Source of the DNA: a virus
Virus record (IMG/VR): IMGVR_UViG_3300037587_000020
Coordinates: 1-36,352 of that record
DNA: 36,352 bases
Direction: 5' to 3' (one strand)
Position 1 is the first letter of the stretch. Each line of letters begins with the position of its first letter. The notes beneath the pieces were generated by a model. The model ran no database searches. It worked only from the letters and a program-made list of their open reading frames with translations, and was not told the DNA's origin. This document shows positions 6,602-35,939 of this stretch, piece by piece. The position numbers and the translations under genes are program-made.

Positions 6602-6748
6602 AAATAATTTGTGACATTTACCCCCTTTTTGGAGTAATAGTATATAGAGGGATTTAGAAATTTGTATAAATTATTACTCCCCAGTTTAATATTATAGGTT
6701 ACATAAGTATATATACGGACCTATACCATCAACACAAGGAATATTAAC
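6602..6748 (+). promoter_or_regulatory. AT-rich gap with perfect inverted repeat before scaffold/capsid genes
   Basis: This 147-base gap has no gene. GGAGTAATA at 6631-6639 is exactly complementary to TATTACTCC at 6672-6680. The enclosed loop has a small inner hairpin (AATTT at 6659-6663 with AAATT at 6668-6672). Several TATA-like blocks follow (about 6685-6715). AAGGA at 6736-6740 is the ribosome site for the GTG start of scaffold. It is the longest gene-free stretch on the plus strand and lies before the most highly expressed virion genes. A promoter and/or an mRNA-stabilising or processing hairpin is the natural reading. No clear -35/-10 pair could be fixed. Confidence 0.4.
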
Positions 6749-7513
6749 GTGGCTGACCCAGACCCGTTCACACAAACAACTAATCCCAACGATATTACAC
6801 CTCCGGCGACACCGGAGCCTCCAGCAAGTGATCCCTTTGCAGACCAGCTAGGACAGATCAAAGACGGAGAAGGGAATCCTAAATACAAAGATACTTCAAC
6901 TGCACTCTCAGCGTTGAATAGTTCACAGCTACACATCACAACCCTAGAGGCTGAAAGAGCCAATGATAGGGCAGAAATCGAAAGACTGCGTGAAGAAGTG
7001 ACAAAGAGAGAAGCCGTAGAAGATGTTGTAAATAGGCTTTCCCAGAATACTCAAGTGCCACCAACTAAAGGGGAGACCTCTCCTAATGCCAATGGTCTTG
7101 ATGCAGATGCAGTTGTTAACCTAATCAGGCAAACCTTTGCGTCTAACGAACAAGAGACAGTTGCTAAAACCAACCGTACTTCTGTTCTACAACAACTCGC
7201 AGCCAAATTTGGTGATGGTGAGGCGTTGAACAATGCAGTGGCTGTAAGAGCTGCTGAGCTTGGCACTACCCCAGCTAATATTGGGAAGATGGCTGAGCAA
7301 ACCCCAGAGTTAGTCCTCCAACTTTTTGGTGACGTTAAAACTGTTGCCAATCCTACGCAATCCTCCACTAATGTCCCAGTAACAAACCACAGAGATGTAC
7401 AACCTCTCAAATTCGAGAAGTCTGTAGCTCGTGGTGGTTTTAATGCAAGGGAACTTAAGGAGAGGATGATGGCGGTTAAGGCTGAGGTTAATAAAGAACT
7501 TGGCATTGAATAA
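6749..7513 (+). CDS. Scaffolding protein
   Basis: A 254-residue acidic protein starting at GTG 6749, with AAGGA 8 bases upstream. It opens with a Pro/Thr/Asp-rich disordered segment (about residues 1-28). The segment DQLGQIKDGEGNPKYKD (about 32-48) is characteristic of podophage scaffolds. A coiled coil follows (EAERANDRAEIERLREEVTKRE, about 70-90) and a basic C-terminal helix (FNARELKERMMAVKAEVNKE) of the type that binds capsid protein. It lies directly before the capsid gene. It guides capsid assembly and is then lost from the mature head. Confidence 0.85.
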   Translation: MADPDPFTQTTNPNDITPPATPEPPASDPFADQLGQIKDGEGNPKYKDTSTALSALNSSQLHITTLEAERANDRAEIERLREEVTKREAVEDVVNRLSQNTQVPPTKGETSPNANGLDADAVVNLIRQTFASNEQETVAKTNRTSVLQQLAAKFGDGEALNNAVAVRAAELGTTPANIGKMAEQTPELVLQLFGDVKTVANPTQSSTNVPVTNHRDVQPLKFEKSVARGGFNARELKERMMAVKAEVNKELGIE

Positions 7514-7524
7514 AGGAAAAGTAA

Positions 7525-7667
7525 ATGCAACTCACGACTAATACCCGTGCGTTCGTCGAAGCAGAACAGTATAGTAGGTTTATCCTACTTAACTTGCAAG
7601 ACGGACTGTTGCCAGACAGCTTTTATCGGAACATCTCCGATTTCGGCTCTGGTGATACCCTGCACAT
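7525..7667 (+). CDS. Major capsid protein, exon 1
   Basis: The start is ATG 7525 with AAGGA upstream. Exon 1 encodes 47 codons plus two bases, ending ...SDFGSGDTLH + AT. Unspliced reading runs into a TAA at 7678. Joining base 7667 to 8579 restores GDTLHIKTVGEV, which fits the G-x-L-x-I-x-T-x-G pattern near the N-terminus of podophage capsid proteins. The last exon base is T, as group I splicing requires. Spliced, the protein is 313 residues, close to the usual size of T7-type capsids. The exact junction is inferred; a join after 7670 would insert one Val and also keep frame. Confidence 0.85.
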
Positions 7668-8578
7668 TGTAATGGTGTAAAATTGCTCTAAATAACGTGG
7701 AGGTGAAAGCCAACACGAAGGAAGGTTTGGCTCCAAGGGAGGCTATTATGAAATTTTCAGAAACAGAAATAAAGTACCTAGCAGGTTTAATAGATGCAGA
7801 TGGATCATTATCGTTCCATTTCAGACATTATAAAGATGATAGGTATAACGTAAGTTTAAAGTTTGTTTTGCAACAATCATTAAGCATCGACCACGAAGGT
7901 AAGTTTATTAACTGGCTTTCAGGTTTTGGTGGGTTTAGTCAGCATATCAATATAGCTGATGATAATCACCCCAATTGGTCTGATGCAAACAGGTGGACAG
8001 TAACTTCTTTACAGGAGTTAAACATGCTCATCCCTAGGTTGTCAAAACACATGGTGATAAAAGCTAAACACTTTGAAGCCATGTTACTTAAACTCAATTC
8101 CATATATGGACGATCTGTTTCATCTATAGAAATGGCGGAACTCAAGGAGTTCGCTAGGGTTTCAAGAAAGAATGTTGGACCACTAAAACCTAAGAAACAC
8201 CCTACATGGGCTTGGGTAGCGGGTTATCTTGACGGCGATGGTTGCTATTATATGCGTACCAGAAAGAAAGGTAACAGTGTCTGGAAAGAACTAATCGTTA
8301 GGGTTGTTGCACACGATGATGATATAGTATCATTAGAGCTGCTGCACAAAGCCTTCAACGGAAGGATACATAAAGCAAACTATGAGAATACTCACAACTG
8401 GACAAGAAGTCTAGGTGTTCGTGACTCAAGCTTTGCGATTTACTTTCTGCGTAAAATGGTTAGACATTCTAAACTAAAGAAACACAAGATAGAGAAAATG
8501 CTTCATTACCACCTGCAACGACTAAGCGAGCAAACTCCTGCGGGAGAAGCTATAGTCTAATACATTTGTTTGTAATTG
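7668..8578 (+). mobile_element. Group I intron in capsid gene, with homing endonuclease
   Basis: A 911-base insert splitting the capsid gene in phase 2. It is preceded by U and ends in G, as group I introns do. Visible pairings are: P1 ACAT 7664-7667 with GTGT 7675-7678, ending in a U.G pair (weak, four pairs); P3 TTGCTC 7683-7688 with GAGCAA 8528-8533; P4/P5-like GGA and GCCAA (7699-7713) with TTGGC and TCC (7727-7734); P7 GACTA 8520-8524 with TAGTC 8553-8557; a P8 hairpin at 8535-8546; and P9 TACA 8561-8564 with TGTA 8571-8574. The endonuclease frame fills the P6 loop and continues through the 3' core. I see it as a self-splicing, mobile intron; splicing itself is inferred. Confidence 0.85.
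7748..8560 (+). CDS. LAGLIDADG homing endonuclease (capsid intron)
   Basis: A 270-residue intron-encoded protein. I chose ATG 7748 because AAGGGAGG lies 5 bases upstream; the GTG at 7697 would translate ribozyme core sequence. There are two LAGLIDADG motifs: LAGLIDADG itself at residues 11-19 and VAGYLDGDG at 157-165, so it should act as a monomer with two catalytic Asp residues (D18 and D164). Such enzymes cut intronless alleles at the insertion site and spread the intron. The last 14 codons also encode ribozyme strands (P7, P3', P8), so protein and RNA constrain each other. Maturase activity is possible but cannot be seen from sequence. Confidence 0.92.
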   Translation: MKFSETEIKYLAGLIDADGSLSFHFRHYKDDRYNVSLKFVLQQSLSIDHEGKFINWLSGFGGFSQHINIADDNHPNWSDANRWTVTSLQELNMLIPRLSKHMVIKAKHFEAMLLKLNSIYGRSVSSIEMAELKEFARVSRKNVGPLKPKKHPTWAWVAGYLDGDGCYYMRTRKKGNSVWKELIVRVVAHDDDIVSLELLHKAFNGRIHKANYENTHNWTRSLGVRDSSFAIYFLRKMVRHSKLKKHKIEKMLHYHLQRLSEQTPAGEAIV

Positions 8579-9377
8579 CAAAACCGTCGGTGAGGTAACT
8601 CTTCAGGAAGCATCTGAAGATACCGATCTGGTCTACAACCCAATCGAAACTGGTGAGATCACCTTCACGATTAACGAGTACAAAGGCGACGCTTGGTATG
8701 TCACCGATGATCTCCGTGAAGATGGTACTGACATTGACATGCTTATGGCCGAACGTAGCTCTGCTTCGACTCGTGCCTTCCAAGAAGTCTTTGAAACCGA
8801 TTTCCTAGCAACTGCTGCTTTGGCTTTCCCAAACTCAGACCCTTACAATATTAACTCTTTCGCCCACAAAATTGTGTCCGCTGAGACTAATGATGAATTT
8901 GCTCTCTCTCATTTGGTGAGCATGGGTTTGGCTTTTAATAAAGCTAACGTCCCTTCCGAGGGTCGTATCTTCATCGCAGACCCAATTGTAGAAGCAACGC
9001 TTAATCTCTTGGTTAACGTCTCAACTGATGTTACACCATTTGCGGCTGCTATTCTTGAACGTGGTTTGGCCTCTGGTCAACGCTTCTTGATGAACTTCTA
9101 TGGCTGGGACATCATCCTGTCGAATCGACTCTATGTCGCTACAGGTAATGACGGGACTAACTCCATCGCTGATGGTGTATGGAACCTGTTCATGTGTGTC
9201 CTCGATGACCAGACTAAGCCCCTTATGGGAGCAGTTCGTCGGCCACCTAAAGCAGAGGGTGAACGTAACAAAGATAAAGCTCGTGATGAGTTCGTTGTTC
9301 GTTCCCGCTATGACTTCGGTGTCCAGCGTATGGATACACTCGGTGTCCTAGTCACTCACGCAACTAACATCACATAA
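8579..9377 (+). CDS. Major capsid protein, exon 2
   Basis: Exon 2 begins with C 8579, which completes an Ile codon (AT+C), then KTVGEVTLQEASEDTD. It encodes 266 residues including the segments TFTINEYKGDAWYVTDDLREDG and IFIADPIVEATLNLL, and the terminal FGVQRMDTLGVLVTHATNIT, all typical of T7/SIO1-type HK97-fold capsids. No in-frame start with a good ribosome site lies near its beginning, and the exon needs the 5' part for a functional N-arm. The gene lies between scaffold and a probable decoration protein and should be the most abundant virion component. Confidence 0.9.
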
Positions 9378-24805: not shown

Positions 24806-25637
24806 CATTATGTTTGCCCACTTTTCAATGGGTGTCGGACTATATCTTCAATACACGTATACTCAACGATGTATTGTTCCGCGTTCGGTAAAATCATATC
24901 GACGTATCCTTTTCCTCTATAGAATAGAATTACTTTATATTTAAAACAATCAAGAATGAATGGGTAAATAACAGAGATGAGTTTTTGTAGGTTTAAACCA
25001 CCTACCCTAATCCTGTATCCATAACCCCAACGAACCTTAACAAGGGAACTCTCGATACCCCACTTAATTAGTAAGTGCTCTTGTAGTATTTGAAGTTCCT
25101 CTCTCGGAAAAGCCTCTAAACAAAACCAGCCTATATTCTGAACCTTATTTTTCTTATGGTTCTTAGAGTGAGCCGTATAACCATCACACATATAGATATG
25201 TGCCAACGCTTCTTCGTCTATACGGGAAACATTATATCTGGTTAAGTGTTTACGGACGCCGTACACATGGTCCCTCATGTTTGAGAAGTACGAGTGTTGT
25301 TTAGTTGTTGCCCTATAACCAATGTAACCACGTTTATCGTGTTTAACTGTTAGCCTAGCTCCACTGCCAGTAATCTGTTGCAGAACCTCAGCTATATAGG
25401 AGGCGTATTCTTCGTGCTTAGAGTAGAAGTCTAATCTACCCCGCTCTGTTATGTGAGCATCAGATAGTGAGATGCCATAAACAATTTTCTTGATTCTTTT
25501 TGCTGTCAACAATTCCATTGGAGTTGTTCCTTTCGATCTTCCTGTAGTCTCTGAACCTTCCTATTTCTAGGCTTGGCTGCTGATTGCCCCTAAGGGTTCC
25601 CAGCAATTAACGGAATTTTAATGCGGCAAACTTACCT
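24806..25637 (-). mobile_element. Group I intron in RNR gene, with homing endonuclease
   Basis: An 832-base insert in phase 0, preceded by U (25638) and ending in G (24806). P1 is strong: exon ATGCGGT (25644-25638) pairs over seven bases with the guide GCCGCAT (25627-25621), with U.G at the splice site. The core is canonical: P4 TGCTG (25605-25601) with CAGCA (25582-25578); a CCTA-GAAA-TAGG hairpin (25571-25560); the R element GTTCAGAGACTACA; P7 GACTA (25549-25545) with TAGTC (24842-24838) in the S element AGATATAGTCC; and P9 CCCA/TGGG after it. This resembles T4 td/nrdB-type (IA2) introns. The endonuclease lies in the P8 loop. Splicing is inferred but strongly supported. Confidence 0.93.
24808..25518 (-). 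CDS. LAGLIDADG-type homing endonuclease (RNR intron)
   Basis: A 236-residue protein with AAAGGA upstream of ATG 25518. Two degenerate LAGLIDADG-like motifs are visible: VYGISLSDAHI (residues 13-23, Asp20) and LAHIYMCDG (105-113, Asp112). This is the LAGLIDADG_2 style, unlike the classical motif of the capsid-intron enzyme. The body is basic with beta segments (RWGYGYRIRVGGLNLQKLIS). The last codons (IEDIVRHPLKSGQT) also encode the ribozyme S element and P9, and the TAA overlaps the final intron bases. It should cut intronless RNR genes at the insertion site. Confidence 0.82.
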   Translation of the reverse strand: MELLTAKRIKKIVYGISLSDAHITERGRLDFYSKHEEYASYIAEVLQQITGSGARLTVKHDKRGYIGYRATTKQHSYFSNMRDHVYGVRKHLTRYNVSRIDEEALAHIYMCDGYTAHSKNHKKNKVQNIGWFCLEAFPREELQILQEHLLIKWGIESSLVKVRWGYGYRIRVGGLNLQKLISVIYPFILDCFKYKVILFYRGKGYVDMILPNAEQYIVEYTCIEDIVRHPLKSGQT

Positions 25638-26408
25638 ACCGCATGGATTTGTGGTTGCTATTTCTTCTGCGTACCAGAGGTTGTTCTTATTGTTGATCTT
25701 ATCAATAAACAACACACCGGGTTCGGCATGATCCCATGTGTTACGCATGATCTTATTCCATAGCATACGAGCACTAACTGTCTTATGAACCCTGCCCTCA
25801 AAGACAAGATCGAAGTCTTCATCATTCTTGACAGCCCACATGAACAGGTCCGTAACTGTAACACTAATATTAAAGTTGGTTAGCTTACCATTCTGTTGCT
25901 TACATGTGATGAACTCTTCAATGTCAGGGTGATCCACCCTCAACACGCCCATCATAGCACCTCTACGATGCCCTGCTGACTTAATAGTCTCACACATAGA
26001 GTCCCACACTCCCATGAAGGAGATAGGGCCAGAGGAGGTAGAGCCCAAGGAACGAATAAGGTCTCCTTTAGGTCGTAGTGTTGAGAAGTCAAAACCATCC
26101 CCTCCACCAAGACGCATAGTTTCTGCTGCATCTGTTAGGGCTTGCATAATACCTGCCATTGAGTCAAGTATCGTACCGCTGGCGTAACAGTTAAATGCTG
26201 TTGTACGTCGTGCTGCCCCCGCAGAGGCTTGGATACGACCAGCTGGTAAGAATCTCTGAGCCTCTAAGATTTCGTGTGTTTGTCTAAAGTGTTCCTCATC
26301 GTCCTTGAGGTGGTCAGCCACACGTGCTGTTCCCTCATGGAAGCTCTCCCCTTCTTGTAGGTACTTAGGAGCGCATTCAAGCTCCATAACTTCTTGGATT
26401 TGGTTCAT
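25638..26408 (-). CDS. nrdJ: Class II ribonucleotide reductase, exon 1
   Basis: Exon 1 is 257 codons from ATG 26408, in an ATGA overlap with the upstream small gene. It contains [14 protein letters not shown], the first redox Cys74 in [11 protein letters not shown], and [20 protein letters not shown], and ends TTNPCG. Cys256 is the thiyl-radical cysteine of the N-x-C-x-E motif; the Glu is supplied by exon 2. Unspliced reading continues one codon (AGG) to a TAA. The enzyme class (adenosylcobalamin-dependent, NrdJ) is judged from these motifs and from the absence of an nrdB-like or activase gene nearby. Confidence 0.93.
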
Positions 26409-30963: not shown

Positions 30964-31112
30964 TAGATTACAATCTCGTGTTTGATATGTTCATAAACAA
31001 AAAGCGCGAGTAATAGGTTCGTTATCCCTAAATCCCAGTCCCCTTTAGCTAGAGCTAGGCATCCCCACAAAATAGCTGAGATTAGAATAAAGTAGTTAAT
31101 GTATTTCTGCAT
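30963..31112 (-). CDS. Two-pass membrane mini-protein, 49 residues
   Basis: ATG 31112 lies 17 bases inside the DNA polymerase gene in another frame, with GGAG upstream, and a TAA at 30965-30963 overlaps the next mini-gene. The product starts MQKYINYFILISAILWGCLA and contains a second hydrophobic stretch (ITNLLLALFVYEHI). Overlaps at both ends support translation by coupling. Function unknown; its neighbour is also a membrane mini-protein. Confidence 0.58.
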   Translation of the reverse strand: MQKYINYFILISAILWGCLALAKGDWDLGITNLLLALFVYEHIKHEIVI

Positions 31113-32934
31113 AAGTTTCTCCATATTGTACATCAACATCAAGAACGACGTTGAGGTCTAGTTTCTTGTTAACTTCAGAGATAGATTCTTTTAACAATGT
31201 GGTGCATGTATCTCGGTGTCCCTTCTTAATACACAGCGCGACTTCATCATGAAATTGAGCTGTCATTTGTTTTCTCTTGGACGAGAATTCTTGCACCCAC
31301 ATATCAAAACAATACACACCCGTCCCTTGGTTGAGGGTTGAGAACCTATCCTTATCATACTTAAGTGTGTAGTATAGCTCACTGACAGGATTGTACAGCC
31401 ACGTAGTTCCTCTGAGAGTCTTCGTCTCAGTATTACGAGCTACCTGTGCAATTGCCCAGTTCCTCTTCCAGTACGCTTCAATAAGCTCTTTAGCTTCTGG
31501 TACAGGGAGTTTAGTCTGTCTGGCTAATGTAGCCTCTCTAACGCCATAGGTACAGGCATAGTTAGCGGCTTTATAATTTTTCCTAATGTGACTAAAGTCT
31601 TCTGTCCCATCTACATGGGATTTTATTTGGTCTGGGGACAACACCCCTGCAAACTGTGCAAGGTCGAGGTGAGCATCAAAATCAGGCTCAGCCATTTCCT
31701 CAACATAGTTTGGATCGTATGGATACATATAATGCATCTTGGTAGTTTGTTCAAGAGACACCATGTCAGCTCCACACAACTCATACCCCTCTGGAGCTAT
31801 CAAACACCCTCTGATTTCCTCACCCCAAGGCTTATCGACTCCGGGAAGATTAACAATTACTGAGTGTTTGAAACGGAGAGTGTTAGTAAACCCTGCTATC
31901 TCAGCCTTCAGCCACCCGTTCACCTCGTTCTTTAGGAACCCTTTGAAGATGCCTATACGATGGTTAATTACGGACAGACCATTAAGAAGGTCAATAGAGG
32001 GTTCTTTCTCCGATAGTTCAAGGACACTATCACATACTCTACCCTCCCCTTTAACTTGTACTTGGGGTATGGTTCGTACTTCACCAGTGTCTTTGTTACG
32101 CTTGTATTCGAAGGTTGCAGGTTCCCACCCCAAAGAAAAGAGCCAGTCTTTCACCTGAATAGGACTTGCAGGGTTGGGTCCAGTCTCTCCTACGACGGTC
32201 TTTACATTGCCGAGGAAATTTTCTGGGAGGTTCTTCTCGCTAAGAAGATTAAACCATCTGGCTCCAACTACTGATTGAGTCCCATCCTTCTTAAATGGTT
32301 TCTCTGGTCGTGTCTTTTCTTGGTATTTCAGGACTGTAGGCATAGCTGCCTTTAATGCCTCCACCTTCTCTTCTTGTTGGACGAGCAATGTATCAAGGGA
32401 CGACTGAGCCAGCTCTTTATTGAGCTTCCACTTACTGCGTTCTTGTTCTCTTGCACAATCCATCTTAAACATCAGATAATTTATTAGTTTGTCTGCTTTC
32501 GGTTTGGACCCGTAGAGTTCTAATAAATGTTTCTTTTGTTTATTCCATAGCCAAGTGTTGATCTTGACATCTTCCTCACACCTATGAGCGTACTCCTCGG
32601 GGGTTAGACCCTCCCAGTCAGTGATCTTTGGTTTAGGTATGCCGGACTCAGCTCCATAACTATCAAGGCCATGTATCCTACGAGTATATTCTAAGTACCA
32701 AGAGAGGGCTAAGGTATCAATTAGTCTCGCCTTAATCTTGATGTTTAGTATACGTTCTAACGTAGGTATGTCGTATAGAATGATACGATGGCCGATGAGT
32801 AATGGTGCTTCGGTTAATATCCTACGCATCTCTTCGTAGTCAAAGGTTGTCTTTACCTCCCCTTTGAGGTTATACGAGAGACAATGTATTCTTGTAGCGT
32901 CATCTAACCCATCTGCCTCAACGTCGAAGATCAT
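31096..32934 (-). CDS. DNA polymerase, family A with 3'-5' exonuclease
   Basis: I choose ATG 32934 (612 aa), which forms ATGA with the upstream stop; a TTG nine codons earlier is unlikely. The exonuclease domain has Asp4-x-Glu6 (DVEADGL), Asp55 (LYDIPTL) and Tyr115/Asp122 (EEYAHRCEEDVKI). The polymerase motifs are A at GADMVSLE (Asp390), B at RKNYKAANYACTYG (451-464) and C at HDE (562-564). The length is slightly shorter than T7 gp5 but complete. It replicates phage DNA with the primase-helicase at 34230-35939. Confidence 0.95.
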   Translation of the reverse strand: MIFDVEADGLDDATRIHCLSYNLKGEVKTTFDYEEMRRILTEAPLLIGHRIILYDIPTLERILNIKIKARLIDTLALSWYLEYTRRIHGLDSYGAESGIPKPKITDWEGLTPEEYAHRCEEDVKINTWLWNKQKKHLLELYGSKPKADKLINYLMFKMDCAREQERSKWKLNKELAQSSLDTLLVQQEEKVEALKAAMPTVLKYQEKTRPEKPFKKDGTQSVVGARWFNLLSEKNLPENFLGNVKTVVGETGPNPASPIQVKDWLFSLGWEPATFEYKRNKDTGEVRTIPQVQVKGEGRVCDSVLELSEKEPSIDLLNGLSVINHRIGIFKGFLKNEVNGWLKAEIAGFTNTLRFKHSVIVNLPGVDKPWGEEIRGCLIAPEGYELCGADMVSLEQTTKMHYMYPYDPNYVEEMAEPDFDAHLDLAQFAGVLSPDQIKSHVDGTEDFSHIRKNYKAANYACTYGVREATLARQTKLPVPEAKELIEAYWKRNWAIAQVARNTETKTLRGTTWLYNPVSELYYTLKYDKDRFSTLNQGTGVYCFDMWVQEFSSKRKQMTAQFHDEVALCIKKGHRDTCTTLLKESISEVNKKLDLNVVLDVDVQYGETYAEIH

Positions 32935-33167
32935 GGTGTGTCGTTGGTACACATAAAACAATCACAAGGAACCGACAATGCCCCATGTCGGAGTGCAGTT
33001 TTTACCGCTTCAGCTATGCGCTTGTCTGAGATGTCTTGGCGGATATAGGCAACCTCATCATCGTCGTTCGGTTTGCTGTTGTCCCACTCACCCTCAATAA
33101 TACCTTGTTCTTCTGCTCCGACACTGATATCAATCCACACACGTATAGTTTCTGGGGAATTAGTCAT
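32931..33167 (-). CDS. Small acidic protein with C-terminal Cys cluster
   Basis: A 78-residue acidic protein between the sigma-like gene and DNA polymerase, overlapping both by ATGA. It ends with ALSVPCDCFMCTNDTP, three closely spaced Cys (C-x-C-x2-C) that could hold a metal. The N-terminal part looks beta-rich (TIRVWIDISVGAEEQGIIEG). Family not recognised. Confidence 0.6.
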   Translation of the reverse strand: MTNSPETIRVWIDISVGAEEQGIIEGEWDNSKPNDDDEVAYIRQDISDKRIAEAVKTALRHGALSVPCDCFMCTNDTP

Positions 33168-33658
33168 ACTTCCACTCCATATTTATCAGCCACAAGTTTC
33201 TTAAACCTATTAGAGATGGTTGTCACATTAGATTGTGTAACATTCTCCTCAATCTCACTTATCTCCTTAGAAGTATAACCGAGAATGTAAAACAGGTATA
33301 AGATACGCTTAATACGTTTGTGACCTTTCATTTCATTGATCTCTCCCCACACTAGCAGTAGATGCTCTTGCACCTTCTCGTATGGGACATGCTCTTCAAT
33401 CTCATCCGTCTTGTTATCTACAACAACTCCTCCTAGCTTATCAAGCTTCTTGTAGTCACGCAGAGAGTTATAGAGGATGGTGTTGAACCATGTGTTGAGC
33501 TTAGCCTTGTTAGGATTATAAGAGCCCTTATACTTCCAAGCTCTCATGTACGCTTCTTGTACAACATCCTCCCCTGCGTCCCTACTACCTGCTAGACGAG
33601 TCATAATCTTAGTCTGTCTGTCATGGTTTTCTTGGTAGAAAGTGTTTAGATCAATCAT
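33164..33658 (-). CDS. Sigma-70-family (ECF-like) transcription factor
   Basis: A 164-residue protein. Region sigma2 is visible at about residues 5-75: DAGEDVVQEAYMRAWKYKGS, then LNTWFNTILYNSLRDYKK, the standard core-polymerase-binding and -10 region pattern. Region sigma4 is at about 113-158 with a helix-turn-helix (YTSKEISEIEENVTQSNVTT). Size is that of ECF sigma factors. It sits in the early block beside DNA polymerase. It probably binds host RNA polymerase core and directs it to phage promoters, since no phage RNA polymerase is seen. Promoter targets are unknown. Confidence 0.8.
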   Translation of the reverse strand: MIDLNTFYQENHDRQTKIMTRLAGSRDAGEDVVQEAYMRAWKYKGSYNPNKAKLNTWFNTILYNSLRDYKKLDKLGGVVVDNKTDEIEEHVPYEKVQEHLLLVWGEINEMKGHKRIKRILYLFYILGYTSKEISEIEENVTQSNVTTISNRFKKLVADKYGVEV

Positions 33659-34229: not shown

Positions 34230-35939
34230 TTAAATCTCCTTGAACAGAGTTGTGTTACGGTCCCAGAACAAACCTTGTTTACCTGAGTTCCCAAACTCTC
34301 TGTCTTCTAATATTTTTAAGTAGCGTATGTTACGGTATTCAGTCGGGAGATCATCATCTTTGTTCCCTTCCAAACCTAACATCAAATTACAACTACGCAT
34401 CATGGCCCTACTTCCAGAGAATTGAGACGATAGTACATCACCCCCCATCTCATGTGGACAGTTACCCAAACCAACGAAATCACCCTTAGCATACTTCTTA
34501 ATGCGTGTATCCTTCTGGATGTTGCCCTCAGGAGCCTTCAGGTGGCAGAACAGGAAGATTACGATGTTCAGGTCCAGAGCCATAGCTGCACACTCCTGAG
34601 CGACCTCCTGTAGCTTCGTGTTGGCTTCTGCTGCGTTAATACCGTTGGTTAAGTTGGTGATCGGGTCAATAAATACAACCTTCACTCCAGCTGCTGCGGC
34701 TTGGACAATATCTGCCTTCAACGACTCCCAGCCTAAGTGTTGGTATAGATCAACCATAGCTAGGTTGTCCTTAAGTAAGACAGAGGCTTTATCGAACGCT
34801 TCATAGTCAAACTCAATGTCTGGGTCGGTAAAGTTCTTACCAACTAATTTACCAGCCATAAGTTTGTACGTTTTCTTGTTAGCTTCCTCTGGCTTAGCCA
34901 TAAACACCTTAACATTGTGTTGGTTAATGAAATGGGAGGCGAGAGCATTAAGCAACTCACTCTTACCCATCTTAACACCAGCACCGATGTAAATAGTCTC
35001 TCCGTAACGTATCCCTCGTAGCATTTGGTCTAGATTGGACCAAGGCCAAGTCAATTCACCTCTTTGTGTTGGTTCTCGTGCGGCTTCGTGTAGATCACGT
35101 CCCCATACGATACGAGAGTTCTTTGGTTTAGCAGCATCGAATGCAAATGACTTGTAGGCGGCCTTTACGTGGCCCTCAAGTATACAATCATTAGCATCTT
35201 TGCATGGTAGTTTTACTGTTTTTGCATTTGGTAGGAGTAAGAGCGCAGCTTCAATAGCTCTCTGTCCCGGTGGGTCGTCGTCGAAACATAATACAACTTC
35301 CCTAAATATCCTATTAATTTCATCTAAATGTTTTGATATTGCTTGTTTTGCACTGGAAGCACCCCTTGGGAGGCTTACAATGGCAGGTTCGTAGTCCTTG
35401 TTGCCATACATTTCGTAAATACGATCAACAGCAACAGCATCCTCCTCACCTTCAGTGATAATTAGTCGATACGCCCCTAACTTACGAGCGTTCTCCCAAT
35501 TAAACAAATCTGCTTGCTTACAATCACCCACAGACCAGCTTTTCTTCTCCCCAACCAGACTTTTAGCCTTATACCCTGTGACTTTACCATCTTTAGTGTA
35601 AGGGAAGTAGGATATGATTGGTGTCTTACCATCATTCTCACTGACAGCTATTTTTATGTTAAATTTATCCAAATTCTTGGCTCTAAGTTTACGAGCACGG
35701 AGATCAACACACTGGTAGCCACTAATTTCAGCTACTTCTGTCTTAATCTCTTCTTCTGTTTTGGGTGGTGGTAGGTCTAAGTCACCCACCTTCTTCTCAG
35801 TTCCATATGGATTTGCTATGTATGTTAAGCAATTCCAGCAGTAACCATCCACCGAACCATCTTCTTGTGCGTAAACCTGCAAGCCTTGACTCGTGCCACA
35901 ATCTTTATGGCCGAGCTTCTCTAAGCAGATCCCTGACAT
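34230..35939 (-). CDS. Primase-helicase (T7 gp4-like)
   Basis: A 569-residue replication protein with all domains in order. Zinc-binding region: His11, Cys14, Cys34, Cys37 (HKDC ... CWNC). TOPRIM primase: Glu163 (ITEGEEDAVAVD) and Asp220-222 (LCFDDDPPGQRA). RecA-like helicase: Walker A GAGVKMGKS (319-327) and Walker B with Asp425 (VVFIDPITNL). It unwinds DNA ahead of the polymerase and lays down primers as a hexamer. It is preceded by AAGGAG. Complete in length. Confidence 0.95.
   Translation of the reverse strand: MSGICLEKLGHKDCGTSQGLQVYAQEDGSVDGYCWNCLTYIANPYGTEKKVGDLDLPPPKTEEEIKTEVAEISGYQCVDLRARKLRAKNLDKFNIKIAVSENDGKTPIISYFPYTKDGKVTGYKAKSLVGEKKSWSVGDCKQADLFNWENARKLGAYRLIITEGEEDAVAVDRIYEMYGNKDYEPAIVSLPRGASSAKQAISKHLDEINRIFREVVLCFDDDPPGQRAIEAALLLLPNAKTVKLPCKDANDCILEGHVKAAYKSFAFDAAKPKNSRIVWGRDLHEAAREPTQRGELTWPWSNLDQMLRGIRYGETIYIGAGVKMGKSELLNALASHFINQHNVKVFMAKPEEANKKTYKLMAGKLVGKNFTDPDIEFDYEAFDKASVLLKDNLAMVDLYQHLGWESLKADIVQAAAAGVKVVFIDPITNLTNGINAAEANTKLQEVAQECAAMALDLNIVIFLFCHLKAPEGNIQKDTRIKKYAKGDFVGLGNCPHEMGGDVLSSQFSGSRAMMRSCNLMLGLEGNKDDDLPTEYRNIRYLKILEDREFGNSGKQGLFWDRNTTLFKEI

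Follow-up and report, generated by a model that had tools for sequence, protein, structure and literature searches.

The window analysed here, an entire virus record of 36,352 bases, encodes a small ECF-type sigma factor (33164..33658, minus strand) and has, ahead of its capsid genes, a predicted promoter of matching design (6606..6641, plus strand). A small sigma gene together with a matching switch before the capsid genes makes it very probable that the late genes of this podovirus are turned on by re-aimed host RNA polymerase. Comparison with related genomes makes it highly probable that the phage sigma displaces sigma70 on the host core enzyme and directs late transcription from promoters of the 6606-6641 type.

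The sigma factor and its genomic setting

The open reading frame at 33164..33658, which begins with ATG and encodes 164 residues, had been assigned to a sigma factor in an earlier sequence-only reading that gave no strand. This assignment is borne out, with the minus strand added, and the observation is real and far beyond chance. The protein matches the NCBIfam model TIGR02937 (sigma70-ECF) over residues 4-154 with 46.5 bits against a curated cut-off of 42.9, and PHROG 1740, 'RNA polymerase sigma factor', over residues 4-160 (E=4.7e-16). A search of viral contigs with the single sigma sequence gave zero relatives, so profiles were used instead; a profile of 41 relatives aligns with both domains of B. 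subtilis SigW (5wuq, E=7.8e-21). Region 2 (residues 7-70; 33449..33640, minus strand), which in sigma factors is the core binding and -10 recognition domain, is matched by Pfam Sigma70_r2 (PF04542) with E=1.5e-10 and 41.2 bits against a cut-off of 24, and the same model recognises 40 of the 41 family members. Region 4, with its helix-turn-helix and the recognition helix TQSNVTTISNRF, is located at residues 111-160 (33179..33328, minus strand) by the SigW profile alignment and the helices of a structural model. Both regions had been called clear, and an HMM search against the Sigma70_r2 and r4 families had been proposed as a check. Run here, that search supports the description for region 2 and not for region 4, for which the Pfam match to the window protein alone is below cut-off (E=0.049).

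The AlphaFold (AF2) model of the protein (pLDDT 90.5, pTM 0.56) consists of two helical domains separated by a low-confidence linker (residues 80-86), with region-4 helices at residues 114-125, 130-136 and 142-160. Its closest folds among solved structures are ECF sigmas, mostly in initiation complexes. Whole-chain TM values are low, as expected if the two domains are mobile with respect to one another. Fitted on its own, region 2 superposes on region 2 of sigmaE bound to GTAAAA (5or5) with an rmsd of 1.6 Å and a match probability of 1.00. The window protein is a standard-looking ECF (group 4) sigma on all sequence features tested: it has region 2, it has region 4 with a helix-turn-helix as judged by TIGR02937, the SigW alignment and the model helices, if weakly in Pfam alone, and it lacks regions 1.1 and 3, its two linker-joined domains falling within the size of about 160-200 residues usual for the group. 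As such, it would be expected to bind core polymerase.

The weakness of region 4 in Pfam, where the region-4 model (r4_2) is matched at E<=0.01 in only 12 of the 41 family members and the window protein falls short of the cut-off, could be taken to mean that the sigma is a remnant, or that it serves in host takeover solely by tying up core polymerase, without activating any phage promoter. We consider this extremely improbable, as the full-length ECF model is matched above its cut-off, both domains are folded with high confidence, the position of the gene is kept across very divergent phages, and a promoter motif co-occurs with it.

The window shows no end repeats in a simple check. Homology of its terminase, portal and DNA polymerase, together with its gene order, places it in the Zobellviridae, and identity between its terminase and those of annotated members reaches 71%. 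From this identity, and from a gene order matching that of complete genomes of about 47-50 kb, the window probably comprises about 36 kb of a Zobellviridae podovirus genome of roughly 50 kb, with about 14 kb of the early part absent. The sigma gene does lie next to DNA polymerase, as had been stated: a family A enzyme (31096..32961, minus strand; PF00476, E=1.9e-17; PHROG 17, E=1.5e-92) is its conserved downstream neighbour, and a DNA primase-helicase (34230..35939, minus strand; PHROG 239, E=1.2e-138) its conserved upstream neighbour. Small open reading frames of 66, 70, 61 and 78 residues flank the sigma gene, and the 78-residue one (32931..33167, minus strand, taken from the list of open reading frames), which lies between sigma and DNA polymerase and overlaps the end of sigma by 4 nt, has zero PHROG matches.

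The same place between primase-helicase and DNA polymerase is occupied by sigma in O4, CVT22, CW02, PQ867840, Klyazma, GP100 and Vibrio phage 1.253, and several relatives already have the gene annotated as such. PHROG 1740 is present in 9 of the 10 Zobellviridae of a first set and in 29 of 35 further records; by profile, sigma is absent from VpV262, SIO1, MJW, PQ867844 and two IMG/VR contigs (G004 and G006). The 'complete circular' record PQ867842.1 (W20) is cut between helicase and DNA polymerase, exactly where sigma would be expected, for which reason it was dropped as a sigma-less counter-example; its circular closure is probably misassembled or incomplete. Five records of the Vibrio/oyster clade (468E53-1, VPMCC5, 1.264.O, PS32B.1 and PQ867854) have a sigma split into two overlapping open reading frames, one of 85 residues with region 2 and one of about 100 residues with region 4; in Vibrio phage 468E53-1 they lie at L135 28081-28640. 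The sigma of these phages either works naturally as two pieces or is joined by a programmed frameshift.

Interrupted genes are also found in the window itself. Codons 1-51 of the major capsid gene (7525-9374) lie at 7525-7677 and the rest follows from 8574 in a changed frame, with an HNH endonuclease reading frame (7697-8560) between the two parts. The endonuclease and the frame change indicate that the interruption is probably an intron; Rfam gave no match in this region. A ribonucleotide reductase gene is split at 24816-25647 (minus strand) by a sequence that matches the group I intron family RF00028 with E=3.6e-8 and 44 bits, short of the gathering threshold of 50; a LAGLIDADG endonuclease reading frame lies within it.

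A predicted promoter before the scaffold gene

The sequence-only reading had suggested that the sigma factor could turn host polymerase towards the late block, naming 6602-6748 as a region for testing this, and comparative motif evidence supports this part of its proposal well. The region is a gap, widespread in Zobellviridae, between an 82-residue open reading frame that follows portal and the scaffold gene (6749..7513, plus strand; identified by tblastn to the annotated scaffolds of O4, CVT22 and CW02), and it contains TTTGTGACATTTACCCCCTTTTTGGAGTAATAGTATA directly 3' of the upstream stop codon. The predicted promoter (6606..6641, plus strand), behind which scaffold is the first gene, comprises GTGACA (6611-6616), a spacer of 16 nt and AGTA (6633-6636); by analogy with Salmonella phage 7-11, transcription would be expected to start at about 6643-6647.

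Sequences of the same design are found at the same place in relatives in which the surrounding spacer is unrelated. Exact-pattern matches to the window site occur in PQ867840 (two sites), G022 and L078, with L376 and L292 matching at the same place. When models leaving out a genome's own site were applied, about 20 of 27 gaps in which a site had been chosen (and PS32B.1 in addition) beat at least 98 of 100 shuffles, a figure that is somewhat optimistic because the leave-out models keep sites picked by eye; none of the five testable sigma-less gaps passes the same model, the best of them having 41 of 100 shuffles as high. VpV262 has no motif before scaffold, and there is no clear site in the portal-scaffold gap of the sigma-bearing G008, G010, G016 and G002. 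Anchored on the -10 element, the sites read (G or T)NNNNN-16-(A/G)(G/C)TA, with a G column stronger than expected (P=1e-4). A single family-wide consensus was rejected because its 36 columns together carry only 14 bits, the -35 box being specific to each genome. GTGACA-N16-AGTA is likely to be the cognate promoter of the phage sigma and is new in this analysis, no cognate promoter for a Zobellviridae sigma being described in the papers searched.

Such sites might instead be host sigma70 promoters served by a MotA-like phage activator, the -35-like box being the activator site and the sigma acting elsewhere. The motif does contain a -10-like TATA, and of its two elements the upstream box varies more, which an activator site might also do. 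However, none of the 54 motif sites reaches 10 of 12 sigma70 matches with a 16-18 spacer, a proven phage ECF sigma has the same spacer and -10 form, the testable sigma-less genomes lack the site too, and it is sigma region 4, rather than region 2 or portal, with which the upstream box covaries. An activator therefore seems unlikely to us, and we retain direct recognition by the phage sigma as the preferred reading. A host sigma70 promoter at the pre-scaffold site was also sought, and none was found on the sense strand within the gap. Sigma70-like promoters aim into the early block in five of eight leaders (Klyazma, O4, CW02, Vibrio 1.253 and Vibrio 468E53-1), and CW02 alone among the leaders has two late-oriented sigma70-like matches as well.

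The link between region 4 and the -35 box is seen both in single pairs and across the family. In both the window and PQ867840 the helix QSNVTT of region 4 goes with the box GTGACA. The sigma helix of G022, QTNVTT, was the sole reason for flagging this genome, and an exact TTTGTGAC-N18-GTA was then found in its portal-scaffold gap: the prediction passed. Scanning all viral contigs for TTTGTGAC-N18-GTATAT returned at least 120 loci, and two among those listed are the pre-scaffold sites of the Zobellviridae contigs L376 and L292. Over 22 genomes, distances between -35 boxes rise with distances between helices once region 2 and portal are corrected for (partial r=0.31, P=0.0005), and show no correlation with region 2. 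The relationship is kept without G022 (P=0.002) and without both G022 and Asterion (P=0.016), and is not significant once all close pairs are removed (P=0.26); covariation of the -10 box with region 2 is not significant either (P=0.22). These comparisons suggest that the -35 box tracks the region-4 helix of sigma, in part through close pairs.

Further copies of the motif were sought by running each genome's own pre-scaffold 40-mer against the remainder of the same genome, and a near-copy is present in most genomes searched. The second copy is significant at z>=3 in 15 of 26 genomes, and in 12 of the 26 none of 60 composition-matched random 40-mers (fewer in two genomes) has an equally good second match. 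The copies read TTTGTGACAAATTGGCCATTTTTCCAGTATATATAA and TTTGTGACATTTACCCCACTTTTCTAGTATATATAA in PQ867840 and CTTGTAGGGTTTTTGCTCAAAAAAGAGTATA and CTTGTAGGGTTTTCCCTCAAAAACAAGTATA in GP100, and Vibrio 468E53-1 has three. No strong second copy was found in O4, G011, G015 and PQ867851, and the window has one site only, its second copy not being significant. Among the copies scoring at least 36, 26 of 28 are intergenic, against about 11% of the genome expected, and a 27th (in PQ867840) lies in an annotated gap. A motif that is unlike between genomes and alike within them fits a phage-specific factor and its sites, and not host sigma70.

The second copy is late-oriented. It immediately precedes the late operon in the Vibrio clade; its place in CVT22, CW02, GP100, PQ867840, Pecta, Asterion and others is within the early block, in antisense orientation to the early genes, and the 1.5 kb that follow it there usually contain no terminator-like sequence. 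Late-oriented early-block copies are found at L005 44150, L003 46085 (minus strand), L137 5469 (minus strand) and L002 5796 (minus strand), among others, at a distance of about 6.6-11 kb upstream of helicase in records with no cut between the two. CVT22 has a third strong copy (L005 23230, minus strand) at the point where late and early blocks converge; a terminator-like hairpin follows about 160 nt further on, as though a short RNA were made.

A third copy directly before the helicase-sigma genes occurs in the Vibrio-clade genomes V468, V1264, V1253 and PQ867854 (4 of 26 genomes), and VPMCC5 has a motif copy before sigma itself, which suggests positive feedback in those genomes. A general autoregulatory site before helicase was rejected on the same count. 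The pre-helicase copies are also what would be expected if the sigma served mainly the middle replication genes or its own operon, with the late genes switched on by, for example, antitermination from early promoters. Given that these copies are confined to 4 of 26 genomes, that the most widely conserved site precedes the capsid genes and that the second copy is late-oriented, we think this very unlikely, and continue to favour late genes as the main target of the sigma.

Relation to known transcription strategies

That no RNA polymerase is visible, as the sequence-only reading had remarked, is correct for the window, an incomplete record with about 14 kb unseen; T7-type RNA polymerase (PF00940) is likewise found in none of 45 Zobellviridae records, the window included, most of them of near-complete genome length. 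The T7 genome, used as a positive control for this search, matches at 1e-109. A T7-type polymerase hidden in large virion proteins was also considered and rejected, the large window proteins scanned containing zero such Pfam domains. The window thus does not show the Autographiviridae strategy, which relies on the phage's own single-subunit RNA polymerase. To our knowledge, the lack of RNA polymerase in the SIO1/VpV262-like branch of the T7 supergroup is a long-standing observation, with the switch-on of its late genes left open. SIO1 and VpV262 resemble the window in family and in having no RNA polymerase, but differ in being without sigma by profile. Neither gene is found in VpV262, SIO1 (described as without RNA polymerase, PMC6775973), MJW, PQ867844, G004 or G006; these relatives transcribe their late genes some other way, and sigma is therefore not obligatory in the lineage.

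Phage T4 also encodes a sigma, gp55, by which host polymerase is re-aimed at late genes, and a gp55-like strategy had been proposed for the window. T4 gp55 has no region 4, needs gp33 and the sliding clamp gp45, and acts at a -10-only promoter, TATAAATA. Unlike gp55, the window protein has region 4 and its predicted site is bipartite, so the gp55 model does not fit, and the right parallel is instead gp47 of Salmonella phage 7-11. For this podoviral sigma, core binding and transcription from late promoters of the form GTAAtg-16-aCTA have been demonstrated, and a feedback promoter near its gene has been proposed (PMC8948821). Our family profile aligns with both domains of gp47 (E=5.2e-13). The two systems are alike in an ECF-like sigma with region 4, in bipartite promoters with a 16-nt spacer and a -10 element of the A-C/G-T-A type, and in the apparent arrangement of late genes, early sigma70 promoters and a feedback promoter near the sigma gene. 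They belong to unrelated phage lineages (7-11 is one of the Grimontviridae and has a 90 kb genome) and differ in -35 sequence, and binding and transcription were demonstrated in vitro and by primer extension for 7-11, whereas here we infer them from sequence.

A second podoviral sigma, phiEco32 gp36 (with its inhibitor gp79), works with host core on middle and late genes; it has no detectable region 4 and recognises a single -10-type element, tAATGTAtA (PMC8948821). The family profile aligns with only part of its region 2 (profile positions 7-46, 9.7e-6). The window thus shares with the 7-11/phiEco32 type a sigma homologous to gp47, and partly to gp36, and a non-sigma70 motif, detected computationally, that is common to sites before late genes. 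A podovirus with its own sigma was already known from phiEco32 and 7-11 (PMC8948821), and the family itself is annotated in relatives. The sigmas of Pseudomonas phages PA11 and O4, and of CVT22, CW02 and Klyazma, belong to the same family and hold the same position, as orthologues of 17-40% identity, and are known by annotation only; the CVT22 paper names the sigma and gives no function (PMC4505115).

A proposed late gene switch-on and its wider meaning

In the mechanism we propose, the early genes would be read by host polymerase with sigma70, and the phage sigma, made from the helicase-sigma-DNA polymerase block, would take the place of sigma70 on host core. The core so bound would be directed to (G/T)NNNNN-N16-(A/G)(G/C)TA promoters, of which that at 6606-6641 would drive the scaffold, capsid and tail genes. 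Complete relatives would use a second promoter copy upstream of the late operon, and in the Vibrio clade the third copy, just before the helicase-sigma genes, could add positive feedback.

A broader reading, which we put forward tentatively and with rather more doubt than conviction, joins these observations across the family. The sigma/promoter system of the Zobellviridae would diversify, each clade's region 4 co-evolving with its own -35 box, and the first late promoter of most complete relatives would lie within the early block and face backward. Switching on sigma would then send polymerase several kb antisense, silencing the early genes, and on across the genome-end junction into the late operon, which would couple late expression to concatemer formation; in the Vibrio clade the sigma would be split into region-2 and region-4 genes.

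For the large sigma-bearing part of the family, the question of how late genes are switched on now has a concrete sigma and a concrete predicted promoter, and cultured relatives in which to pursue it: PA11 and O4, which infect P. aeruginosa, CW02 and CVT22. Further phage sigma/promoter pairs have been predicted to await description (PMC8948821), and the Zobellviridae sigma and its motif match that prediction. The clade-by-clade change of -35 box and recognition helix may also offer a source of orthogonal sigma/promoter pairs.
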